NCBI RefSeq assembly: GCF_004745575.1
Contig: NZ_RPEM01000006.1
Coordinates: 30,471 to 94,470 of the forward strand
Reading direction: 5' to 3'
DNA length: 64,000 nt
Source: Pseudotabrizicola sediminis
GTDB lineage: Bacteria; Pseudomonadota; Alphaproteobacteria; Rhodobacterales; Rhodobacteraceae
A model generated the notes under the pieces. That model was given only the letters and a program-made list of their open reading frames with translations, was not told the origin of the DNA and ran no database searches. Below, one piece after another: positions 10,234 through 47,015 of this stretch (positions are counted from its first letter, which is position 1; the number at the start of each line of letters is the position of its first letter). Position numbers and translations under genes: made by a program.

Positions 10234-10272
10234 CCATACGTCGCCCATACGCAAACCATACGCCCGCCATAC
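10234..10272. repeat. 11-bp-phased CCATAC tandem array, locus A
   Basis: Four copies of CCATAC start at 10234, 10245, 10256 and 10267, exactly 11 bases apart. Most are followed by G, and the intervening bases differ between units. An equivalent array is at 46966-47015. Both share the word ACGTTTGCCATACG and both end in GCCATACCCG. It lies between pyrF and amn, about 110 bases upstream of the amn start. A one-turn spacing suggests protein binding on one DNA face, but a neutral repeat family is also possible. Confidence 0.8.
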
Positions 10273-10379
10273 CCGGAAAACGCGCGGGCTTTCCCCGGTT
10301 CCCCGGCCTTCATCAAGCCTTCACTTGCACGACCCCCCGTCTATCGGCTTATATGCCGGATCATTTGACGAGAGATGTT

Positions 10380-11855
10380 ATGCAAGACGGACCCGCCCCA
10401 CAGACGCCAGACCTGCCCGCAGCGCAGGACTTTACCGACCCCGCCGCCGCCGTTGACCGGCTGGAAGAGCTGTACTCTGCCGCCACCGCCTATCTGGCCG
10501 ATCACTTCAGCGCCACGGTGACAAAGGGCAAACCCCACGCCCGCATCCGTGCCTATTACCCCGAAATCCGCATCCGGGTCACCAGCCACACCAAGACCGA
10601 CTCGCGTCTTGCCTTTGGCTATGTCGCCACCCCCGGGGTCTATTCCACCACTGTCACCCGCCCCGACCTGTTCCGCAACTACCTGATTCAGCAGCTGACT
10701 TTGCTGATGGAAAATCACGGCGTGCCGGTGCAGATCGGGCCATCGGAAACCCCGATCCCGGTGCATTTCGCCGTTGCGAACAACCCGACCGTGTCCGTCC
10801 CGCAAGAAGGCGTGCTGGATTTCAGCCTGCGCGACGTGTTCGACGTGCCGGATCTGGCGACCACGAATGATGACATCGTCAACGGCCAGCGCACCGAAAA
10901 CCCCGATGGCTCGATGCCGCTGGCCCCCTTCACGGCGCAGCGGGTGGATTACTCTCTGGCGCGGCTGGCGCATTACACCGCGACCGATCCGCAGCATTTC
11001 CAGAACCACGTTCTGTTCACTAACTATCAGTTTTATGTGGACGAATTCGAAAGCCACGCCCGCAAGATGCTGGCCGATCCGTCGCAGGGCTACACCGCCT
11101 TTGTCGCCACCGGAAACCAGATCATCACCACGGCGGATGGCGAATTGCAGCCCGTCACCAAGCTGCCGCAGATGCCGACCTATCACCTCAAACGCGCCGA
11201 CGGGCAGGGCATCACACTGGTCAACATCGGCGTCGGCCCGTCCAATGCCAAGACCGCCACCGACCACATCGCCGTGCTGCGCCCGCATGCCTGGCTGATG
11301 GTCGGCCACTGCGCAGGCCTGCGCAACAGCCAGTCGATGGGCGATTTCGTTCTGGCCCACGCCTATCTGCGCGAAGACCATGTGCTGGACGACGACCTGC
11401 CGGTCTGGGTGCCAATCCCGGCGCTGGCCGAGATCCAGATCGCCCTGCAGGAAGCGGTGGCCGAGGTGACCCAGCTGGAGGGGTATGAGCTCAAACGCAT
11501 CATGCGCACCGGCACCGTGGCCACCATCGACAACCGCAACTGGGAGTTGCGCGACCAGTCCGGCCCGGTCAAGCGGCTGTCACAATCGCGCGCCATTGCG
11601 CTGGATATGGAAAGCGCGACCATTGCCGCCAACGGCTTTCGGTTCCGGGTGCCCTACGGCACCCTGCTGTGCGTCTCGGACAAGCCTTTGCACGGCGAAT
11701 TGAAGCTGCCCGGCATGGCCAGCGACTTCTACAAGACGCAAGTGAACCGCCACCTGCAGATCGGCATCCGCGCGATGGAGCGGCTTCGGTTGATGCCGAT
11801 CGAACGCATCCACAGCCGGAAGTTGCGCAGCTTTGAAGAGACCGCCTTCCTATAA
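10380..11855 (+). CDS. amn: AMP nucleosidase
   Basis: The 491 residues have the Amn layout: an N-terminal AMP-nucleosidase domain (about 20-190, with SRLAFGYVATPGVYSTTVTR) and a C-terminal nucleoside-phosphorylase-like domain (about 270-480, with NIGVGPSNAKTATDHIAVLR, MVGHCAGLR and LDMESATIAANG). It hydrolyses AMP to adenine and ribose 5-phosphate, helping set adenylate levels. The length agrees with the family (about 480). I chose the ATG at 10380, preceded by GAGAG. An in-frame ATG at 10353 is possible. The phased CCATAC array lies in its upstream region. Confidence 0.93.
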   Translation: MQDGPAPQTPDLPAAQDFTDPAAAVDRLEELYSAATAYLADHFSATVTKGKPHARIRAYYPEIRIRVTSHTKTDSRLAFGYVATPGVYSTTVTRPDLFRNYLIQQLTLLMENHGVPVQIGPSETPIPVHFAVANNPTVSVPQEGVLDFSLRDVFDVPDLATTNDDIVNGQRTENPDGSMPLAPFTAQRVDYSLARLAHYTATDPQHFQNHVLFTNYQFYVDEFESHARKMLADPSQGYTAFVATGNQIITTADGELQPVTKLPQMPTYHLKRADGQGITLVNIGVGPSNAKTATDHIAVLRPHAWLMVGHCAGLRNSQSMGDFVLAHAYLREDHVLDDDLPVWVPIPALAEIQIALQEAVAEVTQLEGYELKRIMRTGTVATIDNRNWELRDQSGPVKRLSQSRAIALDMESATIAANGFRFRVPYGTLLCVSDKPLHGELKLPGMASDFYKTQVNRHLQIGIRAMERLRLMPIERIHSRKLRSFEETAFL

Positions 11856-11993
11856 CCGCTCATTTTCAACCCCGCCGCGCGGTTTGGGCTTGATTTGCGC
11901 GGCAAAACCCTGTGTAGCGGAACCCGTCGCCGGTAACGGCCAACCACATATCCGGCCCGTCCAATGGCGACGGCCTGCAATAAGGAAAAGAAC

Positions 11994-12284
11994 ATGACGA
12001 TGAAACCGATGACCAAAACCCAGCTCGTTGCCGCTATCGCCGAGACGATGGGCGCCGACAAGAAAACCGCTGGCTCGGCACTGGATGCCATCATCGACGT
12101 GGTGACCCGTGAAGTGGCCGCCGGTGGCGCGGTCACCCTGCCCGGTCTGGGCAAGGTCGCCTGCAAGGCACGGCCAGAGCGTCAGGTGCGCAACCCGGCA
12201 ACCGGCGAAACCATGACCAAGCCCGCCGACAAGCAAGTGAAATTCGCCATCGCCAAGGCACTGAAAGACAGCGTCAACGCCTGA
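11994..12284 (+). CDS. HU/IHF family DNA-binding protein
   Basis: The 96 residues carry the HU/IHF fold. The helical N-terminus is TKTQLVAAIAETMGADKKTAGSAL. Then come the beta region VTLPGLGKVACKARPERQVRNP and the DNA-binding arm tip RNPATGE, followed by KFAIAKALKDSVN. HU proteins bend and compact DNA as dimers. The arm sequence has lysines (MTKPADKQVKF) where canonical HU has the IPA...FKPGK region, so it is a divergent HU paralogue rather than the main HupB. AAGGAAAAG precedes the chosen ATG. It is monocistronic, with a strong terminator following. Confidence 0.9.
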   Translation: MTMKPMTKTQLVAAIAETMGADKKTAGSALDAIIDVVTREVAAGGAVTLPGLGKVACKARPERQVRNPATGETMTKPADKQVKFAIAKALKDSVNA

Positions 12285-12308
12285 TTTTTCAGAACCGAAC
12301 CGTTTTGC

Positions 12309-12334
12309 AAGGGCGCCCAAAGGGGCGCCCTTTT
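12309..12334 (+). terminator. Rho-independent terminator after the HU-like gene
   Basis: A perfect ten-base stem (AAGGGCGCCC and GGGCGCCCTT) with loop AAAG is followed by a short T run (TTTT ending at 12334). It begins 25 bases past the stop. Confidence 0.88.
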
Positions 12335-12440
12335 GCGTACGCCTCTCCGGACAAGTCTGAAACAAATCTCACGCAGCATTTTCTGGCATGTGACCTGCAG
12401 ACGCAGCATGATCCGACCCATCAACACATGGAGAATGGCA

Positions 12441-12527
12441 ATGCGCCTGTCTGATCTGAAACGTCTGGTCGCCAAGGTTACCCTGCCCGCGCCGGTCAAA
12501 CCCCCAGCAGCGGGGCTGGCGTCCTGA
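12441..12527 (+). CDS. Possible 28-residue basic small protein
   Basis: A short frame encodes a 28-residue peptide with an amphipathic basic start (MRLSDLKRLVAKVTLP) and a Pro/Ala-rich end. GGAG sits eight bases before the ATG at 12441; an alternative ATG lies at 12435. It falls in the gap between the HU terminator and the end of the convergent aroC. Without homologues it is only a candidate. Confidence 0.3.
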   Translation: MRLSDLKRLVAKVTLPAPVKPPAAGLAS

Positions 12528-12528
12528 C

Positions 12529-13629
12529 CTAGCCCAGCACGCCGCGCACACCGCCGGTCTGGCCACGGTCCAGCAGCAGGTGGTCCAGCAGCACGCAGGC
12601 CATCATCGCCTCGCCCACCGGCACGGCACGGATGCCGACGCAAGGATCGTGGCGGCCCTTGGTGATCAGGTCAATCTCCTGCCCGCGCTGATTTATCGTC
12701 TGGCGCGGGGTCAGGATGCTGGACGTGGGCTTGACCGCAAAGCGGCAGATCACCGGCTGGCCGGTGGAAATGCCGCCAAGGATGCCACCCGCATGGTTCG
12801 ACAGGAACTCCGGCCCGTTGGCGCCCATCCGGATCTCATCCGCATTATCCACCCCGGTCAGCGTTGCGGCGGCCATGCCGTCACCGATTTCGACCGCCTT
12901 CACCGCATTGATGCTCATCATCGCAGCCGCCAGATCGCTGTCGAGCTTGCCATAGATCGGCGCACCCAGGCCCGGTGGCACACCTTCGGCGATCACCTCG
13001 ATCACCGCGCCGACCGAGTTGTGCGACAGGCGTAGCTCATCCAGATAGGTCGCCCAGTCCACCGCCGCCACAGGGTCGGGGCACCAGAACGGGTTGCTGT
13101 CGACGGTGCTCAGGTCCACCCGGCTCCGGTCAATCGCGCGGGGGCCCATCTGGACCATGTAACCGGTGATCCGCAGGCCTGGCATCAGCGCGGCAAAGGC
13201 GGCGCGGGCGATGCCGCCAGCGGCCACTCGCGCCGCCGTCTCGCGGGCCGAAGACCGGCCACCGCCGCGATAGTCGCGGTGACCGTATTTCTGGTGATAG
13301 GTAATGTCGGCATGACCGGGGCGGAAGGCCTGGGCGATGTCGCCATAATCCTTCGACCGCTGGTCGGTGTTCTCGATCATCAGCTGGATCGCGGTGCCCG
13401 TCGTGCGCCCCTCGAACACGCCCGACAGGATGCGTACCTCGTCGGGTTCTTTCCGCTGGGTGGTGAACTTGTTCTGCCCCGGCTTGCGCTTGTCCAGCCA
13501 GGGCTGGATGTCACTTTCCGTCAGGAGCACGCCCGGCGGGCAGCCATCGACGGTGCAGCCGATGGCTGGGCCGTGGCTTTCGCCCCAGGTGGTCACGCGG
13601 AACAGGTGGCCGAAGGTGTTCAGGCTCAT
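12529..13629 (-). CDS. aroC: Chorismate synthase
   Basis: The 366 residues begin with the canonical [20 protein letters not shown], which includes the first family signature. Further on are GRHDPC near the C-terminus, [20 protein letters not shown] in the FMN/EPSP-binding region, and [13 protein letters not shown]. The enzyme converts EPSP to chorismate in the shikimate pathway, using reduced FMN. The length is standard. AGGGGA precedes the ATG. It ends very close to the small frame at 12441-12527 on the other strand. Confidence 0.98.
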
Positions 13630-13768
13630 GGCGGTCTCCCCTTATGCTGCTGGTTTAGGGGAAAACCGACCGGGAATGAAGGGGGTGGCTTCCGCCTTTG
13701 CGACACCAGACTTTGGTCTGGTCCAGAAGGCGTGGCCCTTGGCCCCGCGCGGCGCTATGCTGGCGGCC

Positions 13769-14791
13769 ATGACCGATGATCTGAAATCCCGCCTGCACAG
13801 CCGCGCCCTTGCAGAGGGGTTTTCGGCCATGCGGGTGACAACGCCGGACGCCATCCCGCTGGCGGCAGAGCGTTTGGCTGCCTTCGTGGCGCAGGGGCGG
13901 CACGGGCAGATGGGCTGGATGGCCGAACGAATGGCATGGCGCGGCGACCCCACGGCGCTTTGGCCGCAGGCGCGCTCGGTGATCATGCTGGCGGAAAGCT
14001 ATGCGCCGGAGGAGAACCCGCTGCCGCTGCTGGAGCTGCGGGACCGGGGCGTGATCTCGGTCTACGCGCAGGGCAAGGATTACCATGATCTGGTCAAGCG
14101 CCGGCTGAAGCGGCTGGGGCGCTGGCTGATTGACCAGGCCGAGTGTGAGATCAAGGTGTTCGTCGACACCGCCCCAGTGATGGAAAAGCCGCTGGCGCAG
14201 GCGGCGGGGCTGGGGTGGCAGGGAAAGCATACCAATGTACTCAGCCGCGATCTGGGCAACTGGTTCTTCCTCGGCGCGATTTTCACCACGCTGGAGCTGC
14301 CCCCGGATACGCCAGAGGTCAGCCATTGCGGGTCCTGCACCGCCTGTCTGACGATCTGCCCGACAGGCGCGTTTCCCGCGCCTTACCAACTGGATGCGCG
14401 GCGGTGCATTTCCTATCTGACCATCGAGCATTCCGGCCCGGTGGATGAGGACCTGCGCGGGTTGATGGGCAACCGGATTTATGGCTGCGATGATTGTCTG
14501 GCGGTGTGCCCGTGGAACAAGTTTGCCAAGGCGGCGCGTGACATCGGCTATGCGCCGCGGCACGGTGCGCCGCCCTTGGCGGAACTTGCTGGACTGGATG
14601 ATGCGACGTTCCGGGCGCGGTTTGCAGGCAGCCCGGTCAAGCGGATCGGGCGTGGGCGCTTTGTGCGCAATGTGCTGTATGCCATCGGCAACTCTGGCGA
14701 TGCGGCGTTGCGCGAAGTGGCGCAGGGGCTGTGCGGCGATGCCGATTCCACAGTGGCCGATGCAGCGCGTTGGGCGGTCGCGCGGCTTTAG
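13769..14791 (+). CDS. queG: Epoxyqueuosine reductase
   Basis: The 340 residues match QueG, which reduces epoxyqueuosine in tRNA to queuosine using cobalamin and two 4Fe-4S clusters. The cluster cysteines are visible as [12 protein letters not shown] (C187, C190, C193, C197) and CDDCLAVCP (C240, C243, C247), with C213 in [10 protein letters not shown]. The cobalamin-domain motif VDTAPVMEK carries the likely catalytic Asp (D133). The chosen ATG has only a weak Shine-Dalgarno, and an in-frame ATG lies 12 bases upstream. Its TAG overlaps the ohrR stop codon on the other strand. Confidence 0.96.
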
Positions 14792-15213
14792 GCACCGCGC
14801 AGATGATCGCGCAGCGTGGTGATCTGATCGCGCAGGCGGGTCAGATCGTCGACCGACAGGCCCGTTTTTTCCAGAACGCAGGCCGGAATATGCGCGGCGC
14901 GGGCCTGCAGCGCCCGGCCCGGTTCGGTCAGCGTGATGTTGACCTGACGCTCATCGCGGTCGTCGCGGGTGCGGGTCACAAACCCGCGCTCTTCCAGCCG
15001 TTTCAGCAGGGGGGTCAGCGTGTTCGATTCCAGCTGCACCTGACGACCCAGTGCGCCGACGGTCTGCCTGTCCTGCTCCCACAGCGCGGTGAGTACGAGG
15101 TATTGCGGGTAGGTCAGCCCCAGATCGTCAAGCAGCGGCTTATAGACATGCTGCATCGCATGGGTGGCTGAATACAGCGCAAAGCAGATCATGTCAGGCA
15201 GGGTAAGTGTCAT
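14788..15213 (-). CDS. ohrR: OhrR, MarR-family organic peroxide sensor
   Basis: The 141-residue MarR-type winged-helix repressor begins with the OhrR hallmark: a reactive cysteine near the N-terminus (C10 in [13 protein letters not shown]) and the partner tyrosines of the YPQYLVL segment. A second cysteine at 112 suggests the two-Cys type, in which oxidation forms a disulfide. The wing region is [16 protein letters not shown]. In this family oxidised OhrR leaves DNA and ohr is induced. It is divergent from ohr over a 106-base region holding two near-identical operator-like repeats. Confidence 0.95.
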
Positions 15214-15232
15214 GCCGATAATATAGTCGTGT

Positions 15233-15307
15233 GCGATTAAATCGCAAGCGGGTTGAACCAGCTCGCCAAAGCGCCTATATGTATCGCATACGATAAAATC
15301 GCAAGCG
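15233..15307. promoter_or_regulatory. Duplicated OhrR operator-like repeat between ohrR and ohr
   Basis: The first element contains a perfect inverted repeat, GCGATT and AATCGC around one A (15233-15245). A 17-base direct repeat, CGATTAAATCGCAAGCG at 15234-15250, recurs as CGATAAAATCGCAAGCG at 15291-15307 with one mismatch. The starts are 57 bases apart. One copy lies near each gene, which fits joint repression of both by OhrR. The exact consensus differs among alphaproteobacteria, so the binding assignment is an inference. Confidence 0.7.
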
Positions 15308-15319
15308 AAAGGAAATCAG

Positions 15320-15748
15320 ATGTCCGTTGATCCGAAATACTGGACCGAAGCTCAGGCCACCGGCGGTGGCCGCAACGGTGTGGCCAAACTGGCCGATGGC
15401 AAGCTGACCGTCACGATGACCAGCCCCAAGGAACTTGGCGGCTCGGGTGCCGGGCATAATCCAGAGGAGCTGTTCGCAATCGGCTATGCCGCCTGCTATC
15501 TGGGCGCGATGCGCTTTGCGGCCACCAGCGAAAAGCTGGGCACCGTGCCCGATGATGCGACCGTAGACGCCCATGTCGGCATCGGCCCGCGCAGCGATGG
15601 CGGCTTTGGCCTGAAGGTGAAACTGGTTGTGAACCTACCGGGGGTCGAGAAAGACGTGGCCCAGAAGATGGTGGAACGCGGCCACTTCATCTGCCCCTAT
15701 TCTAACGCCACCAAAGGCAATATCGACGTGGAAACCGAACTGGCCTGA
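15320..15748 (+). CDS. ohr: Organic hydroperoxide resistance protein (peroxidase)
   Basis: The 142-residue OsmC/Ohr-family thiol peroxidase has both conserved cysteines: the peroxidatic one in AACYLGAMRFAA (C59) and the resolving one in HFICPYSNATKGN (C125). The conserved NPEELFAIGYAAC block precedes the first. The enzyme reduces organic and fatty-acid hydroperoxides in the cytoplasm, usually recycled by lipoylated proteins. AAAGGAAA precedes the ATG. It is divergent from ohrR and presumably repressed by it. Confidence 0.97.
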   Translation: MSVDPKYWTEAQATGGGRNGVAKLADGKLTVTMTSPKELGGSGAGHNPEELFAIGYAACYLGAMRFAATSEKLGTVPDDATVDAHVGIGPRSDGGFGLKVKLVVNLPGVEKDVAQKMVERGHFICPYSNATKGNIDVETELA

Positions 15749-15767
15749 GCCGGTTTGTGCCGCCGCC

Positions 15768-15791
15768 CCGCCCGTGCATTTGCGCGGGCGG
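15768..15791 (+). terminator. Hairpin after ohr
   Basis: CCGCCCG (15768-15774) and CGGGCGG (15785-15791) form a seven-base stem with a ten-base loop, followed by TTGGTCTTGG. The T content is only moderate. It starts 20 bases past the ohr stop. Confidence 0.5.
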
Positions 15792-15847
15792 TTGGTCTTG
15801 GGGTGATTCTGAGGTAGACTGCAGCCCTGATCTCAAGGGAGGACAGT

Positions 15848-16030
15848 ATGCACCGTGACCCTAAAGGCCGCCATCAGGCCGACACCCGCACCCCCAGCAC
15901 CGGCAGCAAGACCGCCCACTTCCTGCGACTGGCGCGCGGCAAACGCGACGGCTTTCACACCAGCCACGCGCCCGCGAGCGCATCGCGGCTGGTGCAATTC
16001 CTGCGCATCGCGCGGGGGCGGACGGCTTAA
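15848..16030 (+). CDS. Small basic hypothetical protein
   Basis: This 60-residue, very basic peptide has a strong GGGAGGA Shine-Dalgarno seven bases before the ATG, better than many genes here. It holds an internal near-repeat: HFLRLARGKRDGF around residues 24-36 and QFLRIARGR near the C-terminus, separated by a Ser/Ala/His-rich linker. It is not recognised. A nucleic-acid-binding or membrane-associated small protein is possible, but nothing proves it. A strong tetraloop hairpin begins six bases past its stop. Confidence 0.6.
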   Translation: MHRDPKGRHQADTRTPSTGSKTAHFLRLARGKRDGFHTSHAPASASRLVQFLRIARGRTA

Positions 16031-16035
16031 TGCAA

Positions 16036-16057
16036 CAGGGTGCCCGAAGGCACCCTG
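16036..16057. terminator. CGAA-tetraloop hairpin shared by convergent genes
   Basis: CAGGGTGCC and GGCACCCTG form a perfect nine-base stem around CGAA. It sits between the stops of the small basic protein (16030) and ilvE (16067) and could serve both directions. Neither side has a good T tract. Confidence 0.65.
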
Positions 16058-16066
16058 CGTGTCAGT

Positions 16067-16933
16067 TCAAGCCCGCACCAGCTTTTCGTAATCCGTAGAC
16101 ACCTGTTTGCACAGCGCGCCGACCTCAAAGTTGTAGTCGCCGATCTGGCCCACTGGCGTCACTTCTGCTGCGGTGCCGGTCAGGAAGCATTGCTGGAACG
16201 ACTCAAGCTCTGATGCCTCGATCCGGCGTTCGATCACCGGGATGCTCATGCCTTGCAGCATGCCAATCACGGTCTGCCGGGTGATGCCGTTCAGGATCGC
16301 ATCGGGGATTGGCGTGTGCACCTCGCCATCCTTGACGAAGAAGATATTGGCCCCCGTCGCCTCGGCCACATAGCCGCGATAGTCGAACATCATCGCATCC
16401 GAACAACCCTTCGCCTCGGCCGCGTGCTTCGACATGGTGCAGATCATGTACAGGCCCGCCGCCTTGGCGGCATGCGGGATCGTGTCGGGCGACGGGCGCT
16501 TCCACTTGGCGATGTCGAGCTTGGCACCCTTGAATTTGGCGTCACCGTAGTAATTGCCCCAGGACCAGACCGCCACCGCCATGCGGATCGGGTTGCGCTT
16601 GGCGGCCACGCCCATATCTTCACCCGCGCCGCGCCAGCACAGCGCCCGCACATAGGCGTCGGTCAGATTGTTGGCTTTCAGCACCGCATCCTTGGCGGCT
16701 TCGATGTCGTCCACGGAATAGGGCAGTTCCATATCCAGCAGTTCGCCCGATTTGCGCAGGCGTTCAGAATGTTCGCGGCTCTTGAAGATCTTGCCGTTAT
16801 AGCACCGCTCGCCTTCAAACACGGCAGAGGCATAATGCATGGCATGGGTCAGGACATGGACATTGGCATCGCGCCAGTCCACCAGCTTGCCATCCATCCA
16901 GATGAACCCGTCACGATCGTCATAGCCTGCCAT
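16067..16933 (-). CDS. ilvE: Branched-chain amino acid aminotransferase
   Basis: The 288 residues are a fold-type IV PLP aminotransferase. Family features are HYASAVFEGERCY, the probable PLP lysine in HAAKAAGLY (K157), the EATGANIFFVKDG block and NGITRQTVI. It interconverts Val, Leu and Ile with their 2-oxo acids. I chose the ATG at 16933, preceded by AGAGGG, which matches the usual N-terminus MAGYDDRDG. A longer frame from 16963 lacks support. It is divergent from petP. Confidence 0.95.
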   Translation of the reverse strand: MAGYDDRDGFIWMDGKLVDWRDANVHVLTHAMHYASAVFEGERCYNGKIFKSREHSERLRKSGELLDMELPYSVDDIEAAKDAVLKANNLTDAYVRALCWRGAGEDMGVAAKRNPIRMAVAVWSWGNYYGDAKFKGAKLDIAKWKRPSPDTIPHAAKAAGLYMICTMSKHAAEAKGCSDAMMFDYRGYVAEATGANIFFVKDGEVHTPIPDAILNGITRQTVIGMLQGMSIPVIERRIEASELESFQQCFLTGTAAEVTPVGQIGDYNFEVGALCKQVSTDYEKLVRA

Positions 16934-16968
16934 GATGCCCTCTTTCTTCACAATGTTGCACAAAACTG

Positions 16969-16981
16969 GTCCGTTTCGGAC
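16969..16981. promoter_or_regulatory. Inverted repeat in the ilvE-petP divergent promoter region
   Basis: GTCCG and CGGAC flank TTT, inside a broader TTGCACAA...TTGCGCAA symmetry. It is about 36 bases upstream of ilvE and 122 upstream of petP. It may be an operator, possibly for the adjacent MarR-type PetP, but this rests only on symmetry and position. Confidence 0.3.
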
Positions 16982-17102
16982 ACAATCTTGCGCAAAGCCG
17001 TAGGCGAGCTAACAGTTGGGCCTTGGAAAGTCAACATCGCTGACATAACTTCACCGTCAGGGTGCTGAAACAACCAGACCGTCAGCGCGAGGGAGGCGAC
17101 CC

Positions 17103-18295: not shown

Positions 18296-18305
18296 CCTTG
18301 CAGGG

Positions 18306-18938: not shown

Positions 18939-19013
18939 ATCCTCAGCATGGCGGGTGTGCCCGCGGCGATCAAGTGGGTTGCAGCCGCCGCCGGGCCCGC
19001 CATAGTGGCACCC

Positions 19014-19847: not shown

Positions 19848-19900
19848 AGCACCGCCGATTGTGCTTGCGCCCGGCGGGGTACGCCTTATCTTTAACAATA

Positions 19901-19995
19901 CCTCGGGGTGCCGGGCGGGTTTTCCGTCGGGCTGAGATGCGCAAGCGGACCCGTTGAACCTGAACCGGATCATACCGGCGGAGGGAAGGTGCGAA
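19901..19995 (+). ncRNA. TPP riboswitch (THI element) upstream of thiBPQ
   Basis: The conserved thi-box elements are in order: CTCGGGGTGCC (P1/P2 side), GCTGAGATGCGCAAGC with the CUGAGA core at 19932-19937, then ACCCGTTGAACCTGAACC and GGATCATACCGGCGGAGGGA. The element ends about 45 bases before the thiB ATG. In Gram-negative bacteria TPP binding to such leaders usually blocks translation initiation, so thiamine uptake should be shut off when TPP is abundant. Confidence 0.95.
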
Positions 19996-20041
19996 GGATG
20001 ACCTCCAAGCCCGACCTGTTCCGTCGCATTTGGAGGAAGAC

Positions 20042-21025
20042 ATGCGAACTTCGATCCTTGCGGCTGGCCTTTCCTGCATCGCCTTTGCGGCGCATGCACA
20101 AACGCCTGTCCTGACTGTTTATGCGGGCGATTACTTCACCTCGGAATGGGGGCCGGGACCGGCCATCGAATCGGGGTTTGAGGCGTTTTGCGGCTGCGAC
20201 CTGCAGTTTTCCACCGGCGATCTGCTGCCCCGGCTGATGCTTGAAGGTGCGCGGACGCAGGCCGATGTGGTGATCGGGCTGAGCACCGATGTGCTGGCGC
20301 GCGCGCGTGAGGCCGGGTTGTTTGCCCCGCACGGGCAGGATCTGGCGGCGCTGACCCTGCCGGTGGACTGGCCGGATGACACCTTTGTGCCGTTCAACTG
20401 GGGCCATACGGCTTTTATCTACGACACCACCCGCATGGCCGAGCCGCCCGCGACGTTGGATGCGATGCGCAGCCTGCCGGACGATGTCACAGTGGTCATT
20501 CAAGACCCCCGCACCTCGATCTCCGGGCTGGCTTTGGTGCTTTGGGTCAAGGCGGTGTATGGCGATCAGGCGGGCGCGTTCTGGGCCGATCTGGCCCCGC
20601 ATATCCTGACCGTGACCAAGGACTGGTCCGAAAGCTATGGCCTGTTCACCAGCGGCGAGGCGGACATGGTACTGAGCTACACCACATCCCCCGCCTATCA
20701 CATCATGGCCGAGGAGGATCTGACCAAACAGGCGGCGATCTTCCCCGAGGGGCATTACTTCATGGCCGAAACCGTGGGCAAAATCGCGGCAACCGATCAG
20801 CCCGAGCTGGCTGACATGTTCATGGCATGGGTGCTGACGCCAGAGTTTCAGAAGGTGATTCCGGCGGCCAACTGGTCCTTGCCCGCAGCATTGCCGCAGG
20901 CTGACTGGCCCGCAGGCTGGTCTGACCTGCCGCTGCCGGAAAAGGTGCTGTTCCTGACGGAAACGCAAGCCGAAGCCCTGCGGGTGGAGGCGGTTGAGGA
21001 ATGGCGCGCCGCGCTGTCGCAGTAA
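20042..21025 (+). CDS. thiB: ThiB, thiamine/TPP ABC transporter substrate-binding protein
   Basis: The 327 residues start with a signal peptide (about 1-20, ending AAHAQ) and continue as a periplasmic iron/thiamine-type binding protein: LTVYAGDYFTSEWGPGP, a conserved FCGCDLQF and VLSYTTSPAYH. ThiB delivers thiamine, TMP or TPP to the ThiPQ transporter. GGAGG precedes the ATG. It is the first gene after the TPP riboswitch, and its end overlaps thiP by 25 bases, so the operon is tightly coupled. Confidence 0.95.
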   Translation: MRTSILAAGLSCIAFAAHAQTPVLTVYAGDYFTSEWGPGPAIESGFEAFCGCDLQFSTGDLLPRLMLEGARTQADVVIGLSTDVLARAREAGLFAPHGQDLAALTLPVDWPDDTFVPFNWGHTAFIYDTTRMAEPPATLDAMRSLPDDVTVVIQDPRTSISGLALVLWVKAVYGDQAGAFWADLAPHILTVTKDWSESYGLFTSGEADMVLSYTTSPAYHIMAEEDLTKQAAIFPEGHYFMAETVGKIAATDQPELADMFMAWVLTPEFQKVIPAANWSLPAALPQADWPAGWSDLPLPEKVLFLTETQAEALRVEAVEEWRAALSQ

Positions 21026-23230: not shown

Positions 23231-23240
23231 GCGCATGAAA

Positions 23241-24136: not shown

Positions 24137-24153
24137 GTCAGTCAGTTCCTTTC

Positions 24154-36616: not shown

Positions 36617-36625
36617 AGGCAGGAC

Positions 36626-38539: not shown

Positions 38540-38586
38540 CCCTCATCTGTTCATAAATATCCCGGGGGGTCGTCGGATGTTCGCCA

Positions 38587-38602
38587 CTGGTTCAAGAACC
38601 AG
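38587..38602. terminator. Short hairpin between dxs and a GST gene
   Basis: CTGGTTC and GAACCAG form a seven-base stem around AA. It is nested inside a weaker GC-rich symmetry (about 38562-38632). It lies between convergent genes and may help terminate both, though it has no T tract. Confidence 0.4.
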
Positions 38603-38633
38603 CCGGCGACGGGCAGCGCCCCCGGGGGTGCCG

Positions 38634-39299: not shown

Positions 39300-39385
39300 G
39301 CAGCACCCGTGTAAAATTTGTGCAACTGATACAGGCCATGCACCCGGGGTTCAATGCGCAACCGCCCCCGGGGTGGCGAGGCCGG

Positions 39386-40743: not shown

Positions 40744-40832
40744 CTGCATTCTCCTATCAGCCCGTTCAAACTCGCAACCGCTGCCCCCGTCAATGGGGTG
40801 ATCGACGCGCCCCGGCCTTTGCCCGCAGGCGC

Positions 40833-41567
40833 TCACCTGAAACACCCGTCCCGCCCATCCGCCGCAATCGTCTCGGCCCCCGCCATGATCGACCGCGTCC
40901 GGTTGCGCACGAAATTCGACGGGTTCGACGCCGACCGCGCCTTTGGGTCCGGCAGGATCGCCGCCAGCCGCGCCGCCTGCAGCGCGCTCAAGGACCGCGC
41001 ATCGACACCGAAATAATGCTCCGCCGCCGCCTGCACCCCGAACACACCCTCGTCGAACTCTGCAACGTTCAGGTAAACCTCCAAAATCCGTTCCTTCGAC
41101 CAGATCAGCTCCACCGCCGGGGTCAGAACCCCCTCCATCGCCTTGCGCAGCCACGACCGGCCGTGCCACAGGAACACGTTCTTCACCACCTGCTGGCTGA
41201 TGGTCGATGCCCCCCGACTGCCACCTTCCGCCACTGCCGCGCGGATGGCGTTCATGTCGAACCCCCAGTGCAGGCAGAAGTTCGCATCCTCCGCCGCCAC
41301 CGCCGACCGGCCCATCACCGGTGCGATATTGTCAAACGCCACCCAGTCCCGCTGCAATCCACCCACCCGGGCCGATTCCTGCAACTGGTAGATATTGACC
41401 GGCGGGTTGAGGAAGGAAAACAGCAGCACCAGCACCGCAAAAAACCCGGCCACCCCCAGCACGCCCCGCACCGCCCAGCGCAGCACGCGCCTGCGCAGCG
41501 CGCGGGCGGGCACCAGCAGCGGCGCGGCATCAGTGCCCTTGCGGGATTTTCGGGGTGAACTGGCCAT
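40833..41567 (-). CDS. mtgA: Monofunctional biosynthetic peptidoglycan transglycosylase
   Basis: The 244-residue GT51 enzyme has an N-terminal basic region and one membrane helix (about 33-53, GVLGVAGFFAVLVLLFSFL). It then shows the catalytic block AVAAEDANFCLHWGFD with the catalytic Glu, GASTISQQVVKNVFLW, and the second catalytic region LEVYLNVAEFDEGVFGVQAA. It polymerises lipid II into glycan strands without a transpeptidase domain. The length is normal for MtgA. Confidence 0.95.
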   Translation of the reverse strand: MASSPRKSRKGTDAAPLLVPARALRRRVLRWAVRGVLGVAGFFAVLVLLFSFLNPPVNIYQLQESARVGGLQRDWVAFDNIAPVMGRSAVAAEDANFCLHWGFDMNAIRAAVAEGGSRGASTISQQVVKNVFLWHGRSWLRKAMEGVLTPAVELIWSKERILEVYLNVAEFDEGVFGVQAAAEHYFGVDARSLSALQAARLAAILPDPKARSASNPSNFVRNRTRSIMAGAETIAADGRDGCFR

Positions 41568-41619
41568 ACCCCGTTAGGCCTCAAGCGGCGCGCGGGGTCA
41601 AGACGCGACGCGCCAAAGA

Positions 41620-41643
41620 AAAGGGCCCCGCGCGGGACCCTTT
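41620..41643 (-). terminator. Terminator after gltB
   Basis: AAAGGG and CCCTTT flank an inner CCCGCGCGGG self-complementary core with one mismatch. Read leftward it is followed by TTTTCTTT. It sits 19 bases past the gltB stop. Confidence 0.8.
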
Positions 41644-41661
41644 GTTATCTTGCGCCGGACC

Positions 41662-44600
41662 TTACTCTGCCGGAACCTTCACCGCCTCGTCGCTCAGCGG
41701 GTGGGGCAGATGCACCAGCATTTCTGTCGGGCAGACCTGCAGGAAATTGGCCCGCTCCGCCTCCCAGTCCGACAGGATCGCGGCTGCCTTGCGGCTGCCG
41801 GTTTCGCGCGCATGCGCCTCGATCAGACTGCGCAACTGCCGGTCCCAATGCGGATGGCTGACAGCACAGGTGACCAGCGATTCCATGTTGATGAAATCTT
41901 CCGCCACGTCGTCCGGGTCATACAGATAGGCCATGCCCCCGGTCATCCCGGCACCAAAGTTCGCGCCGATCCGGCCCAGAATCACCGCGATGCCGCCGGT
42001 CATGTATTCACACCCGTTCGACCCACAGCCTTCGACCACCACATTCGCACCCGAATTGCGCACGGCAAACCGCTCTCCGGCCCGACCGCTGGCAAACAGA
42101 TAGCCATCGGTTGCGCCATACAGCACCGTGTTGCCGATGATGGTGTTTTCCGACGCCTCCAGCGGCGACGACATCACCGGCCGCACCACGATGGTGCCCC
42201 CCGACAACCCCTTGCCAACATAGTCATTGGCGTCGCCCATCACCTCCAGCTTCAACCCGCGCGCGGCAAAGGCGCCCAGCGACTGCCCCGCATTGCCGGT
42301 CAGCTTCACCGTCAGGTGGTCGGGCTGCAAGCTGTTGCGCATGCCGAACTTGCGCACGATATGGCTGCTGGCCCGCGTGCCTATGGTGCGGTGGGTGTTC
42401 CTCACCGCATAAGACAGCTGCATCTTCTCGCCCTCTTCAAAGAAGCGGGCACCGTCGCGGATGATCTCGGCGTCCAGCGTATCGGGCACCGCATTGCGTG
42501 GCTTGGACCGGTCATAGGTGATCCGGTTCGCCCCATCGACGGTAATCAGCAGGGGGTTCAGGTCCAGATCATCCAGATGCGCCGCACCCCGGCTGACCTG
42601 CGTCAGCAGATCCGCCCGCCCGATGATCTCGTCCAAAGACCGCGCGCCGATCCCGGCCAGCAGTTCGCGCACTTCCTGCGCGTAGAAGGTGATCAGGTTC
42701 ACCACCTTGTCCGCCGTGCCGGTGAACTTGCGGCGCAACTCCTCGTTCTGGGTGCAGACCCCCACCGGGCAGGTGTTGGACTGGCACTGCCGCACCATGA
42801 TGCAGCCCATCGCGATCAACGCGGCGGTGCCGATGCCGTACTCCTCGGCCCCCATCATCGCCGCCATCACCACATCACGCCCCGTGCGCAACCCACCATC
42901 GGTGCGCAGCGTCACCCGGTCGCGCAGGTTGTTCATCGACAGCACCTGATGCGCTTCCGTCAGCCCCATCTCCCACGGCAGGCCGGCATATTTGATCGAC
43001 GTGCCGGGACTGGCCCCGGTGCCGCCATTGTGGCCCGAGATCAGGATGATATCGGCCTTGGCCTTCGCCACGCCCGCCGCAATCGTGCCCACGCCCGACG
43101 ACGACACCAGCTTCACCGTCACCTTGGCGCGCGGGTTGATCTGCTTCAGGTCATAGATCAGCTGCGCAAGGTCTTCGATGGAATAGATATCGTGGTGCGG
43201 CGGGGGCGAAATCAGTGTCACCCCCTTGGTGCTGTGCCGCAGCCGCGCAATCAGCTCGGTCACCTTCATCCCCGGCAGCTGGCCGCCCTCACCGGGCTTG
43301 GCCCCCTGCGCCACCTTGATTTCCAACTCCTCGCAGGCGTTCAGATACTCCGCCGTCACACCAAAGCGCCCCGACGCCACCTGCTTGATCTTGGCGCTTG
43401 GGTTGTCGCCATTCGCCTCGGGCAGGAAATGGGCCGGGTCTTCGCCGCCTTCGCCAGAGTCAGACTTCGCCCCGATCCGGTTCATCGCCACGTTCAGCGT
43501 CTTGTGCGCCTCCGGGCCCAATGCCCCAAGGCTCATGCCCGGCGTGACAAACCGCTTGCGGATCGAAGTGATAGATTCCACCTCCTCAATCGGCACCGGC
43601 TTGCCCAAAGGCTTGATGTCCAACAGGTCACGAATATGGATCGGCGGGTTGGCCCGCATCGCCGCCGTGTACTGCTTCCAGATGTCAAAGCTGGCCCGGT
43701 CGCAGGCCGCTTGCAGCATATGCATGGTCTGCGCTTCCCAAGCGTGCTTTTCACCCGATCGCCGCGCCTTGTAGAACCCGCCAATCGGCAGCACATCCGC
43801 CCCGCCCAGCCAGCCCTTGGCGTGTACCTCTTCCAGCTTCTGCTCGATGCCGGTCAGGCCGATGCCCGAAATCCGGCTGTGCATGCCGGGGAAATACTCG
43901 GCCACCATGGCGCGGCTCAGCCCCACCGCCTCAAAGTTCAACCCGCCGCGATAGCTGGAGATCACCGAAATCCCCATCTTCGACATGATCTTCAAGAGGC
44001 CACCGTTGATCGCGTCACGATACCGCCGCATGGCATCGGTCAGACTGCCATCCAGCAGCCCCCGGCTGATCCGGTCGGCAATGCTGTCCTGCGCAAGGTA
44101 GGCGTTCACCGTGGTCGCCCCGCAACCAATCAACACCGCAAAGTAATGCGGGTCGATACATTCGGCAGACCGCACGTTGACCGAACAGAAGGTCCGCAGC
44201 CCCTTGCGCGTCAGCCAGCTGTGCACCGCTGATGTGGCCAGAATCATCGGCATCGGCACCTTGTCTGCGCCCTGATGCTCATCGCTCAGCACCAGATGGC
44301 TGGCCCCCGAGCGCACGGCATCTTCTGCCTCGGCCCGGATGCGTTCCAGCCCCTGCCGCAGATCGTCAAGCCCCGCCGTCACCGGGAAGGTACAGTCGAT
44401 ATAGGCCACTTGTTCGCCGAAATGCCGGCACATCACGTCGAATTCCGAATTGGCGATGAACGGGCTTTCCAGAACCAGAATCTCGGTCTGGCTGGAGTTT
44501 TCGTCCAGCACGTTCTTCAGGTTGCCAAACCGCGTCTTCAAACTCATCACCCGGCTTTCACGAAGTGAGTCAATCGGCGGGTTTGTCACCTGAGAAAAGT

Positions 44601-46200
44601 TCTGCCGGAAGAAATGCGACAGCGGGCGGTAGATGCTCGACAGCACCGCCGCAGGCGTATCATCGCCCATGGATGCGATCATTTCCTTGCCGTCTTCGGC
44701 CATCGGAGCCAGAACCTGCTCCAGCTCTTCCACCGTGAAACCGGCGGCAATCTGGCGGCGGCGTAGATCGGCACCTTCGAACTGCGCGCGTTCGGGCACA
44801 TCATGCAGCAGGCTGTTCAGGTCGATGACCTTTTCGATCCACTCGCCATAAGGGTTTGACGCCGCGAGTTTGTCCTTCATCTGCGCGTCGTGATAGAGCT
44901 TGCCCTCGGCCATATCGACCGCAATCATCTGTCCCGGTCCCAGCGCGCCCTTTTCGCGGATGGTGGATTCGTCCACCGGCACCATCCCCGCCTCGGACCC
45001 GGCGATCAGCAAGCCGTCACCCGTGACCACATAGCGCATGGGGCGCAAGCCGTTGCGGTCAAGCCCGCCACAAACCCAGCGGCCATCGGTCATCGCCAGC
45101 GCCGCAGGCCCGTCCCAAGGCTCCATCACCGCATTGCAATAGGCATACATATCGGCCCAGGCTTTCGGCATGTCGGTCGTGGTCTTGCTCCACGCCTCGG
45201 GCACCAGCATGGTCTTCGCCATCGGGGCCGACCGGCCCGACCGCACCATCACCTCGAACACCGCATCCAGCGCGCCGGAATCCGACGTGCCCGACGGGAT
45301 GATCGGCTTGATATCCTCCGCCGCGTCGCCAAAGTTGTTCGACGCCATGCGGATTTCATGGCTTTTCATCCAGTTGACGTTGCCCTTCAGCGTGTTGATC
45401 TCGCCGTTATGGGCCAACATGCGGAACGGCTGCGCCAGCCACCACTGCGGGAAGGTATTGGTGGAATACCGCTGGTGATAAATCGCAAACGCAGACTCGA
45501 ACCGGTCATCCATCAGGTCGGGGTAGAACACCGCAACCTGCTCGGCCAGCATCATGCCCTTGTAGATGATGCTGCGGCACGACAGGCTGCACAGGTACAG
45601 CCCTTGAATCTGCGCCGCCACCGCCGCCTTCTCGATCCGACGGCGGATGATATACAGCTCGCGCTCGAACTGTTCCTGATCGATGTCCTTTTCACAGCGG
45701 ATCAGAATCTGCTCAATCTCGGGGCGCGTCGCATTGGCCTTGTCGCCCAGCACAGACGTGTCCACCGGCACATGCCGCCAGCCATAGATATAGTGCCCCA
45801 TCCGCAGCACTTCGGCCTCAACAATGGTGCGGCAACGCTCCTGCGCGCCAAAGTCGGTGCGCGGCAAAAACACCTGCCCCACGGCGACCAGCTTGTTGAT
45901 GTCCGGCTCGTGCCCGGTGCGGCGGATCACGTCGTAGAAAAACTTGACCGGGATCTGCACATGAATGCCCGCGCCGTCGCCGGTCTTGCCATCGGCATCC
46001 ACAGCACCCCGGTGCCAGATGGCCTTCAGCGCATCAATCCCCGACTGCACCACCTTGCGGCTGGGCTTGCCAGAAATCGCCACCACCAGACCGACACCGC
46101 AGGACGAATGCTCGTCATCGGCCTTGTACAGCCCGTTGGCGTCCATCCAGGCGCGCTTTTCCTCTTCGGCCTTTACCCAGGCGTCGTCATAGATGGTCAT
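41662..46200 (-). CDS. gltB: Glutamate synthase (NADPH) large subunit
   Basis: The 1512 residues have the full GltB layout. The N-terminal class II glutamine amidotransferase has its nucleophile Cys at C34 in SSCGVGLVVA; this becomes the N-terminus after propeptide cleavage. A central domain, an FMN/2-oxoglutarate synthase domain (GGTGASPGTSIKYAGLPWE) and the 3Fe-4S cysteines in GCIMVRQCQSNTCPVGVC follow. The C-terminus is the GXGXG beta-helix domain. With GltD it makes two glutamates from glutamine and 2-oxoglutarate. I chose the ATG at 46200 with AAGGA. The gene starts inside the end of the secreted-protein gene at 46187. Confidence 0.98.
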   Translation of the reverse strand: MTIYDDAWVKAEEEKRAWMDANGLYKADDEHSSCGVGLVVAISGKPSRKVVQSGIDALKAIWHRGAVDADGKTGDGAGIHVQIPVKFFYDVIRRTGHEPDINKLVAVGQVFLPRTDFGAQERCRTIVEAEVLRMGHYIYGWRHVPVDTSVLGDKANATRPEIEQILIRCEKDIDQEQFERELYIIRRRIEKAAVAAQIQGLYLCSLSCRSIIYKGMMLAEQVAVFYPDLMDDRFESAFAIYHQRYSTNTFPQWWLAQPFRMLAHNGEINTLKGNVNWMKSHEIRMASNNFGDAAEDIKPIIPSGTSDSGALDAVFEVMVRSGRSAPMAKTMLVPEAWSKTTTDMPKAWADMYAYCNAVMEPWDGPAALAMTDGRWVCGGLDRNGLRPMRYVVTGDGLLIAGSEAGMVPVDESTIREKGALGPGQMIAVDMAEGKLYHDAQMKDKLAASNPYGEWIEKVIDLNSLLHDVPERAQFEGADLRRRQIAAGFTVEELEQVLAPMAEDGKEMIASMGDDTPAAVLSSIYRPLSHFFRQNFSQVTNPPIDSLRESRVMSLKTRFGNLKNVLDENSSQTEILVLESPFIANSEFDVMCRHFGEQVAYIDCTFPVTAGLDDLRQGLERIRAEAEDAVRSGASHLVLSDEHQGADKVPMPMILATSAVHSWLTRKGLRTFCSVNVRSAECIDPHYFAVLIGCGATTVNAYLAQDSIADRISRGLLDGSLTDAMRRYRDAINGGLLKIMSKMGISVISSYRGGLNFEAVGLSRAMVAEYFPGMHSRISGIGLTGIEQKLEEVHAKGWLGGADVLPIGGFYKARRSGEKHAWEAQTMHMLQAACDRASFDIWKQYTAAMRANPPIHIRDLLDIKPLGKPVPIEEVESITSIRKRFVTPGMSLGALGPEAHKTLNVAMNRIGAKSDSGEGGEDPAHFLPEANGDNPSAKIKQVASGRFGVTAEYLNACEELEIKVAQGAKPGEGGQLPGMKVTELIARLRHSTKGVTLISPPPHHDIYSIEDLAQLIYDLKQINPRAKVTVKLVSSSGVGTIAAGVAKAKADIILISGHNGGTGASPGTSIKYAGLPWEMGLTEAHQVLSMNNLRDRVTLRTDGGLRTGRDVVMAAMMGAEEYGIGTAALIAMGCIMVRQCQSNTCPVGVCTQNEELRRKFTGTADKVVNLITFYAQEVRELLAGIGARSLDEIIGRADLLTQVSRGAAHLDDLDLNPLLITVDGANRITYDRSKPRNAVPDTLDAEIIRDGARFFEEGEKMQLSYAVRNTHRTIGTRASSHIVRKFGMRNSLQPDHLTVKLTGNAGQSLGAFAARGLKLEVMGDANDYVGKGLSGGTIVVRPVMSSPLEASENTIIGNTVLYGATDGYLFASGRAGERFAVRNSGANVVVEGCGSNGCEYMTGGIAVILGRIGANFGAGMTGGMAYLYDPDDVAEDFINMESLVTCAVSHPHWDRQLRSLIEAHARETGSRKAAAILSDWEAERANFLQVCPTEMLVHLPHPLSDEAVKVPAE

Positions 46201-46900
46201 GGCTGGAATCCTTCTGGCTGGGGACGGCACGTGTCATCAAGGGGTCGCAATCGAACAAAGGCTCTGTCGCTTCAAATCCGGGTTCGCCGGGGAACATGAA
46301 CTCCACCGGGCTGCCGTCCGTCGGCAGGAAGTCCCCGTCCGGGCCGCGCCATTCCGACGGGCCGGAAAAGAACATCCGCATCTCGGGGTGAATGTATTCG
46401 CGGCCGCGCGATTGGCGCAGGACCACACCGGTCTGGTCGGTTTCGGTAAATTCGAACTGGGTTTCCTTCAGCGTCACGCCGTCAATCGTCACGCTCCGTC
46501 CGGTCAGCGTGTCAAAGCCGTTGACCCGCGTGCGCTCGCCATTGTCGCGGCTCAGATTGAACTGGAACGTATCGGTGCCGCTGGACAACAACTCGCTGAA
46601 CGATGCCGGGTCCACCGGGTCGGCATCGAGGGTCTGGCGCACCACACCGTCTCCCAGATCATAGCTTTCGATCCATTCGGCCTCATGGTTGATCCGGCTA
46701 AGGAAGAACGGCCCCTGCTGGTCAAAATCGGCACGCCATTTGTCACCGGCGGGATCGGCGCTGCACGTGTAGTGGTTCGACACCCGGCACTGCCGCGACT
46801 GCACGGTCAAATAGGTGGTGCAGCCCTCGGGCGGGCTGAATGCCCCGGCAACGGCAGGGGCGGGCAGCAGGGCTGCAACGATCAGCATCTGTTTCAACAT
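46187..46900 (-). CDS. Secreted hypothetical protein between gltD and gltB
   Basis: The protein of about 237 residues is not recognised. It has a signal peptide (about 1-19, ending PAVAGA) and four early cysteines (in PPEGCTTYL, SRQCRVSNHYTCS and DCDPL near the end). An all-beta-looking body follows (for example LKETQFEFTETDQTGVV and GREYIHPEMRMFF). No lipobox and no membrane helix are seen beyond the signal. GGAGG lies nine bases upstream of the ATG at 46900. The 3' end overlaps the gltB start by 14 bases, so it is co-translated with glutamate synthase. Confidence 0.82.
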   Translation of the reverse strand: MLKQMLIVAALLPAPAVAGAFSPPEGCTTYLTVQSRQCRVSNHYTCSADPAGDKWRADFDQQGPFFLSRINHEAEWIESYDLGDGVVRQTLDADPVDPASFSELLSSGTDTFQFNLSRDNGERTRVNGFDTLTGRSVTIDGVTLKETQFEFTETDQTGVVLRQSRGREYIHPEMRMFFSGPSEWRGPDGDFLPTDGSPVEFMFPGEPGFEATEPLFDCDPLMTRAVPSQKDSSHDHL

Positions 46901-46919
46901 CAACCCTGTCCTCCGATCA

Positions 46920-46936
46920 GGTCAGCCTTGCTGACC
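46920..46936. promoter_or_regulatory. GGTCAGC-N3-GCTGACC inverted repeat upstream of the gltB unit
   Basis: Perfect seven-base arms GGTCAGC and GCTGACC with a three-base spacer lie 20 bases upstream of the 46900 start. The inner arms and spacing match the perfect element in front of gltD (GTCAGC-N3-GCTGAC at 48518-48532). It also satisfies the T-N11-A pattern used by LysR-type regulators. Confidence 0.65.
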
Positions 46937-46965
46937 TGCGCCCGATATCCCGCCTGCACACCTTA

Positions 46966-47015
46966 CCCTACGTCCGCCATACGTTTGCCATACGCACATC
47001 AGACGCCGGCCATAC
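46966..47015. repeat. 11-bp-phased CCATAC tandem array, locus B
   Basis: Unit starts lie at 46966 (CCCTAC), 46977 (CCATAC), 46988 (CCATAC), 46999 (TCAGAC, degenerate) and 47010 (CCATAC), each 11 bases apart. The array shares ACGTTTGCCATACG and the terminal GCCATACCCG with the array at 10234. It falls just past the gltD stop codon, between gltD and the secreted-protein gene. Confidence 0.8.

Follow-up and report, generated by a model that had tools for sequence, protein, structure and literature searches.

To our knowledge, how alphaproteobacteria without MatP or SlmA couple chromosome layout to replication and division is an open question. The DNA sites of the described systems closest to the one reported here differ in form. 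The matS site of MatP is a short palindrome; the nucleoid-occlusion sites of SlmA (SBS) and Noc (NBS) are single palindromes bound by TetR- or ParB-family proteins and are not known to be oriented with respect to replication; PhoB-type and ParR-type operators are tandem direct repeats with an 11-bp pitch, found at a few promoters or at one plasmid centromere. MatP of the Escherichia coli Ter macrodomain is described as a ribbon-helix-helix (RHH) protein with more than 20 chromosomal sites, matS lying in the Ter region (PMC12756933); ZapT of Caulobacter crescentus as giving 10 chromatin immunoprecipitation peaks, mostly in open reading frames (ORFs) and biased towards the terminus, without a consensus motif (PMC7188993); and the BrnAT complex of Brucella abortus as binding its own promoter (PMC5086665). 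Here we analyze 64,000 nucleotides of the Pseudotabrizicola sediminis genome (the window), which contain two intergenic arrays of the word CCATAC repeated every 11 bp. The arrays and their candidate binder, a BrnA-family RHH protein, point to an undescribed chromosome-scale system; the open-access literature, which was the scope of our search (subscription papers lay outside it), yielded no account of phased arrays of this kind, nor of any BrnA protein whose sites are dispersed.

The window lies in contig C56 of a genome of 4.04 Mb in 86 contigs (G000). The first-pass annotation of the window had reported four CCATAC words at an exact 11-bp pitch from position 10234, and a second run of five units at the same pitch between 46966 and 47015, two of them degenerate. 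Both descriptions hold at every unit, and the ORF positions place both arrays in intergenic DNA, as had been stated. A sequence-only model of the repeat, R1, revealed that the element is longer than the unit run first described and includes a GCACA box. R1 finds two elements in the window, the next-best match having E=0.9:

10210..10281, + strand: array element 1, with a GCACA box, the palindrome ACGTCATGACGT (10219-10230) and CCATAC at 10234, 10245, 10256 and 10267 (R1 68.9 bits, filters off)
46953..47025, + strand: array element 2, with a GCACA box, CCCTAC at 46966, CCATAC at 46977 and 46988, TCAGAC at 46999 and CCATAC at 47010 (R1 54.2 bits)

The element spans about 70 bp and is built from four to six units at an 11-bp pitch, with a small palindrome alongside (ACGTCATGACGT in G000). 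Alignment of 19 copies from this genome gave a consensus of roughly GCGCACA-n-ACGTCATGACGT-nn-GCCATACGnnnGCCATACGCnnACCAGACGCnnAnCATACC; the 29 pattern matches from which the copies were drawn fall in 22 places, of which L004, L024 and L029 were omitted. Its parts are the GCACA box, the palindrome, which a CCCTACG or CCATACC unit may replace, and the run of units with the core CCATACG or CCAGACG. Bases vary from unit to unit while the pitch stays constant, and this fixed pitch fits the earlier suggestion of repeated binding along one face of the helix. Tandem direct repeats at an 11-bp pitch are shared with PhoB-type and ParR-type operators which, unlike the arrays described here, do not form a chromosome-wide oriented family. 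An RNA element was considered and rejected: RNAalifold found no conserved pairing in the 19 copies (0 consensus pairs), no conserved hairpin or terminal inverted repeat is present, and none of the three Rfam matches within the window falls at either array.

The phasing is far from what base composition yields. The exact pair CCATAC-N5-CCATAC occurs four times in the window and in none of 200 first-order Markov copies, and pairs with up to two mismatches number eight, against a mean of 2.65 in dinucleotide shuffles, only 1 of 100 of which reached eight. Across G000 the exact pair is found 29 times and a reversed control pattern once. In 752,470 bases of G000, a sample that includes the window and consists mostly of stretches selected around arrays, CCATAC or CCAGAC words are separated by 11 bp in 42 cases, by 22 bp in 25 and by 33 bp in 11; all other distances between 5 and 60 bp occur at most five times each, and the reversed control gives 6, 2 and 2 at the same three distances. 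Chance phasing in C-rich intergenic DNA, for which composition is the sole argument, is refuted by these controls and by the 377 of 395 genomes of the family without an R1 match at E<=1e-6, which shows that intergenic DNA of this sort does not generally have such phasing; its probability is negligible. The first-pass annotation had held that a lack of further arrays together with comparable phasing in random sequence would mean chance. The opposite was found, with many arrays elsewhere and phasing well above that of the controls, and its suggestion of a genome-wide repeat family is borne out by the 29 exact pairs and by about 26 arrays in G000. R1 gives 29 matches in this genome at E<=0.001 and 32 in all, of which 26 were used below (25 above 40 bits and one at 32.4), leaving out L056-L059, which score 30.6 to 14.3 bits and fall in predicted ORFs, and two matches that are weaker still. 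All 26 are intergenic according to a simple gene finder.

When the proteins encoded next to arrays were clustered, a single small protein recurred: in four genera its gene directly adjoins an array, the other neighbours differing. This candidate binder (140-176 residues) matches a single Pfam family above cut-off, BrnA_antitoxin (PF14384; 32.5-66.6 bits against a cut-off of 26.1, in four of four proteins), which we take to be an RHH family. At E<=1 Pfam adds one sub-threshold DUF3022 match and no match to the MatP family. The protein has additional sequence at its N terminus, which includes an invariant PxxW, and its tail is variable. Its PHROGs match is an antitoxin family; NCBIfam and PADLOC gave no match, and the best hit among solved structures was TraC at E=0.053, which is not an RHH match. 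In G000 the gene lies outside the window:

Contig C23, 257015-257437: RHH gene of G000

The distribution of the RHH gene fits that of the arrays. A profile of the four proteins detects it in 39 of 53 genomes, namely in 19 of the 20 with at least eight arrays and in 20 of the 33 others (some weakly). It stands beside an array in 18 of the 20 array-rich genomes, in one of them weakly. In 21 genomes, which represent about ten genera, 57-106 bp separate the RHH match from that of an array (15 through R1, five through changed words, and G362 with its own operator only). In many of the RHH loci read, a phased array is positioned 5' of the start codon, with GTATGG reading towards the gene; the array was read by eye upstream of the start codon in G195, G103 and, weakly, G396. 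A predicted DNA-binding protein of matching distribution, as envisaged by the first-pass annotation, has been found in this BrnA-family RHH protein. The in silico evidence that protein and array form a protein/site pair is strong, and we regard this predicted pairing as very probable. ZapT had been considered as a binder and was set aside: no motif is known for it, and the ZapT gene was not searched for here.

Comparison with the type II toxin-antitoxin system BrnT/BrnA reveals both common ground and differences. The candidate binder shares the BrnA RHH domain, and the phased arrays upstream of its gene make repression of its own promoter likely. Unlike BrnA, it has the PxxW N-terminal region and the variable tail, and dispersed sites in addition to the putative operator; no BrnT was found among the six small ORFs beside the RHH gene in G000, and toxin-antitoxin genes of other families accompany it in 4 of 26 loci. 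These 26, out of 27 RHH loci, were mapped and their neighbours compared by clustering, not by a BrnT model. The divergent gene upstream is a DEAD-box helicase in 8 of the 26 (identified by Pfam in G000).

Array word and protein appear to change together. Among the 33 genomes with few or no R1 arrays, several RHH carriers have a changed array word: read by eye, their operators keep the 11-bp pitch with GTTCATGC (G061), GTCTTG (G362), CGTRCAC (G005, G051, G009) or CGTGGT (G003, G015). Searches for dispersed arrays covered GTTCATG-type triples and CGTRCAM pairs. GTTCATG triples gave 11 matches in G061 (10 places, one of them its operator; control 0), one each in G171 and G043, and none in 35 of 39 genomes; the reversed control gave five matches in four genomes (two in G362, one each in G292, G018 and G056). 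CGTRCAM pairs gave 29 matches in G058 (control 2) and 12, 9 and 3 in G051, G005 and G009 (control 0 each), single matches in G171, G018, G022 and G053, and none in 32 of 41 genomes, the control giving nine further matches in eight other genomes. In G058, G051, G005 and G009, the last two from the window's own genus, the RHH gene lies right behind one CGTRCA array (the G058 operator was read only after its CGTRCA matches). As read from the sequences, these four genomes and G061 have exchanged the word of their dispersed arrays in step with the one at the RHH gene. On contig C3 of G362 (244508-244547) the RHH operator consists of four GTCTTG units at 11 bp; this genome possibly represents an operator-only stage.

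In RHH proteins a β-strand reads the DNA. In proteins with GTATGG, GTCTGG or GTCTTG operators the predicted DNA-reading strand (K-x-T-x-W/R) begins with Lys in 21 of 22 cases, the sole exception being G287, whose operator is unclear; this first residue is Arg in all four CGTRCA proteins and the single GTTCATG protein, and His in both CGTGGT proteins. Near relatives in these counts are not independent, and the operator classes, assigned by eye, are uncertain for G396, G287 and G056. On the protein tree, which omits the G013 and G129 proteins, the CGTRCA class implies at least two changes, with G058 on a long branch. The first strand residue thus tracks the array word, a possible recognition code. 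What stays the same is the order of parts: direct units followed by an inverted end unit are found as CGTCATGACG in G000, as GTTCATG...GTTCATGCGAACG in G061 and as CGTGCACA...CGTGCATACG in several G051 arrays, so the architecture appears to outlast the change of word.

The genes around the arrays bear on what the protein/site pair might do. Those flanking the two arrays of the window are:

9482..10177, + strand: pyrF, orotidine 5'-phosphate decarboxylase, 5' of array 1 (Pfam PF00215, 171 bits)
10380..11855, + strand: AMP nucleosidase gene, 3' of array 1 (Pfam PF10423, 188.9 bits)
46187..46900, - strand: gene flanking array 2 on the far side from gltD (no Pfam family at E<=0.001)
47019..48470, - strand: gltD, glutamate synthase small subunit, its stop codon abutting array 2 (Pfam PF14691 and PF07992; named from its domain make-up and a nearby 1522-residue ORF at 41662-46230)

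Array 2 lies on the + strand with both flanking genes on the - strand, and is read against the strand of gltD; the two arrays therefore differ in direction relative to their genes. The same mixture holds for G000 as a whole, where 13 arrays agree with the gene strand and 9 oppose it in 22 tandem regions, two lie between divergent and two between convergent genes. Pooling 19 genomes gives about 106 distinct arrays, a total in which the rule used for merging may have united two pairs of separate arrays. Of these, 45 run in the direction of both flanking genes and 34 against both; 7 have divergent and 12 convergent genes on their two sides, 7 fall in predicted ORFs and one has no neighbour. The neighbours share no theme: besides pyrF, AMP nucleosidase and gltD, identified by Pfam, they include HAD-hydrolase-like, nucleoside-phosphorylase-like and ABC-transporter-like genes, named by eye. 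With neighbours this varied and orientation relative to genes mixed, a regulon defined by gene class was rejected.

These observations also count against a conventional regulon, in which the arrays would be operators of an autoregulated BrnA/RHH transcription factor controlling 10-60 genes. In its favour, an array sits upstream of the RHH gene itself, autoregulation via an upstream site being common among RHH regulators, and five Donghicola R1 matches (L174, L181, L183, L192 and L197) end 14-48 bp before a start codon, for example that of a HAD-hydrolase-like gene, a placement that recurs in the window's genus. Yet the 13 to 9 split in tandem regions shows that gene strand does not set orientation, which follows GC skew instead; the 12 arrays between convergent genes have no obvious promoter there, and the neighbours lack a common function. 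We consider this reading unlikely, while ranking it as the main rival. In two genera, L035 of the window's genus and L066, L067 and L069 of Donghicola, the array stands just 5' of the start of the same HAD-hydrolase-like gene, and the genes on the other side differ.

Array orientation is tied to local GC skew, not to gene strand. The CCATAC strand is the C-rich one in 22 of 26 G000 arrays (two-sided binomial P=5e-4), or 22 of 27 when the weak array L142, which disagrees with the skew, is added. The four exceptions have skews of -0.014 to -0.045; one of them is array C56:142387, judged on a centred 20-kb stretch. Of 20 arrays selected from the 40 in G171, 19 follow the skew (P=4e-5), a count unchanged after leaving out 2 kb on either side. 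In G061 the GTTCATG strand, assigned by analogy, is G-rich in 9 of 10 arrays (P=0.02). GC skew serves only as a proxy for fork direction; the G-rich strand is the leading strand in most bacteria, and if this applies here, GTATGG points from origin to terminus.

An orientation fixed against local GC skew in three genomes resembles that of polar signals such as FtsK-orienting polar sequences (KOPS) or Ter. The arrays could accordingly be read as polar signals for a moving machine (a replication fork, an FtsK-like translocase or SMC), on which an RHH filament would act in one direction of travel. The asymmetric architecture agrees with such a role: direct repeats end in a palindrome, always on the same side, even where the word has changed. 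On the other side, the composition of the word accounts for some of the polarity in GTATGG genomes, no direct link to a motor emerged, and 8-60 sites are few for a KOPS-like pointer, which makes a polar signal of this kind rather improbable, more so than a regulon.

On contig C56 the cumulative skew rises from near 140 kb, about 26 kb from parS, and then falls again; dnaA is on another contig. In the complete genome G195, GC skew is too weak for placing origin and terminus. Contig C7 of P. formosa is free of arrays from 490 to 1409 kb, a 919-kb gap around the skew turn-over near 850 kb that was taken as the terminus (P=0.006 for 28 random sites, with five contigs treated as one circle and the weak array C1:29876 outside the test). 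MatP is likewise an RHH protein with many chromosomal sites. In contrast to matS, the arrays are multi-unit, phased at 11 bp, distributed chromosome-wide, polar with respect to GC skew and absent around the presumed terminus of P. formosa; nor are they confined to a Ter-like region, since the two in the window have the parS cluster at distances of 89 and 126 kb and the P. formosa gap is empty. With SlmA and Noc sites the arrays share dispersal and, in P. formosa, sparseness near the presumed terminus, and differ from those single palindromes in being oriented relative to replication. ZapT, like the candidate binder, is an alphaproteobacterial DNA-binding protein proposed to connect chromosome and division; its peaks lie mostly in ORFs, are biased towards the terminus and have no motif, whereas the arrays are mostly intergenic and carry a phased word.

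The arrays have a patchy distribution and stable positions. Within the genus (16 genomes), R1 counts are 29 in each of G000, G004 and G010 (P. formosa), 8-9 in four genomes and zero in nine, two of which (G005 and G009) carry the CGTRCA version. A named scan of 33 stretches recovered Pseudotabrizicola, Donghicola (three species and a close metagenome-assembled genome, MAG; 13-16 R1 copies), a Pseudorhodobacter strain, a Rhodobacter MAG (21 copies) and one chance-like Peribacteria match. Across the Rhodobacteraceae, R1 matches at least 18 of 395 genomes at E<=1e-6, representing 16 of 351 genera, a lower bound given the stricter filters and a model built from one genus. Six of the 18 have 1-3 matches and stood outside the full R1 rescan. 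That rescan counted 9-60 copies in eight of the 18 genomes, and many of these copies have four or five clean units of GCCATACG; the complete genome G195 has at least 51 arrays. A scan of viruses for CCATACG-N4-CCATACG returned at least 120 matches, as expected by chance for a pattern of 14 fixed bases. In the Rhodobacter MAG (G046, contig C88, about 3036-3186; L187) two array elements share one intergenic region, side by side.

In three genomes of the genus, arrays on one side of the parS cluster lie at about 24-25, 66-67, 87-96 and 124-135 kb, the nearest facing opposite to the other three. The site of array 1 is retained in another genome of the genus (L032), and array 2 recurs in another genus (G137, L225), where it abuts a gltD of 82% identity in unchanged orientation. 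Within the genus, at least 12 of the 26 G000 arrays have a same-place partner among the loci fetched, which covered only some arrays of the other genomes. Between genera, all 39 pairs of neighbour proteins keep side and orientation; these represent about nine places, one of them the RHH gene itself, and two of the places rest on 35-38% identity and could be paralogues. This test compared occupied sites only, and 11 of the 117 rows in the neighbour comparison are the same array fetched twice, two of them perhaps distinct arrays of like sequence. Judged by these comparisons, the array positions are old.

Stable positions also speak against a mobile or formerly mobile family akin to repetitive extragenic palindromes (REP) or miniature inverted-repeat transposable elements (MITE). 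Such a family would explain why the arrays are dispersed, intergenic and R1-negative in 9 of 16 genomes of the genus. Unlike REP and MITE sequences, however, they have no inverted repeat spanning the element, nor a conserved hairpin, and no variable positions, place and orientation being common to genera in 39 of 39 pairs. The unit sequence varies while the pitch is kept, and the protein has no match in phages and only two distant BrnA matches in plasmids, both from Salinibacter. A mobile origin is highly improbable.

The explanation we favour is that the arrays are cooperative sites of the RHH protein, which would be autoregulated and would organize or mark the chromosome rather than regulate neighbouring genes. 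It would act much as MatP does through matS, without belonging to that family. We rate this whole reading as an even bet (probability of about 0.5). Its second part is the less secure: if the protein/site pair is accepted, a chromosome-scale role is somewhat favoured. It is preferred over a regulon on account of the skew orientation, the neighbours without a theme, the arrays between convergent genes and the places fixed over long times. Mechanistically, one RHH dimer would bind each 11-bp unit on the same helix face, forming a cooperative filament for which the palindromic end unit may be a symmetric anchor. The protein would repress or tune its own gene via the array just upstream, and would occupy some 8-60 intergenic arrays dispersed over the chromosome. 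These show a tendency to point the same way with respect to replication, GTATGG lying on the G-rich and presumably leading strand. The likely role of the protein would concern segregation, the structure of the nucleoid, or coordination with forks, translocases or division. A bolder proposal, which we hold tentatively and at less than even odds, is that a domesticated antitoxin-type RHH protein became a chromosome organiser, forming oriented filaments at tens of ancient, replication-polarised sites, and that protein and sites switched word together more than once (Lys with GTATGG; Arg with CGTRCA and GTTCATG). If so, each lineage would carry its own site language on an unchanged architecture.

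Several findings weigh against this explanation. The single-sequence fold of the candidate binder is poor, with a predicted local distance difference test score (pLDDT) of 46, so the RHH assignment rests on Pfam. Pseudotabrizicola alkalilacus (G002, given as 100% complete) has eight arrays and no RHH match, reflecting either arrays without the binder or loss of the gene in a contig gap; G148 has only a weak RHH match with no known neighbouring array, and G020 has three CGTRCAM matches and no RHH gene. In G362 the GTTCATG-type search returned two overlapping matches of its own operator and two control matches, with no dispersed array. In some lineages the RHH protein may be part of a toxin-antitoxin context, given the toxin-antitoxin-type genes of other families directly 3' of its gene in the four loci mentioned above, which may also hint at its origin:

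G046 (L388) and G051 (L386): PIN and HicB-like genes
G292 (L370): Phd/YefM and ParE genes
G171 (L390): Panacea-domain gene

Seven of the roughly 106 arrays, and 4 of 20 in G171, lie inside ORFs predicted by the simple gene finder. Words of CCATACG composition favour the C-rich strand 1.44-1.48 fold, so that composition could account for some of the orientation bias; the G061 test, with its composition-neutral unit GTTCATGC, is small, its skews are weak, and agreement is 7 of 10 when skew is taken at third codon positions. The position of the origin is uncertain, because the cumulative skew of C56 has its minimum at 282 kb rather than at the turn close to 140 kb, and sparseness at the terminus is seen in one genome, too little for claiming terminus avoidance.

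The system offers a defined candidate protein and countable sites in named species (Pseudotabrizicola and Donghicola), with a strand polarity that calls for explanation. It would also provide a natural experiment in the evolution of DNA recognition, in which binder and sites switched to a new word in concert on more than one occasion, and for which a candidate specificity residue is at hand. An antitoxin fold with dozens of chromosomal targets would broaden what is expected of genes annotated as 'BrnA antitoxin'.

Two further features of the window are unconnected with the arrays:

19894-20003, + strand: thiamine pyrophosphate (TPP) riboswitch (Rfam RF00059, 69.9 bits), upstream of an ORF starting at 20042
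50684-50719: perfect 18-bp tandem duplication, two copies of GCCGTTTTCATTTGACCC, some 30 bp behind a tRNA gene (50572-50653); it could mark an integration site

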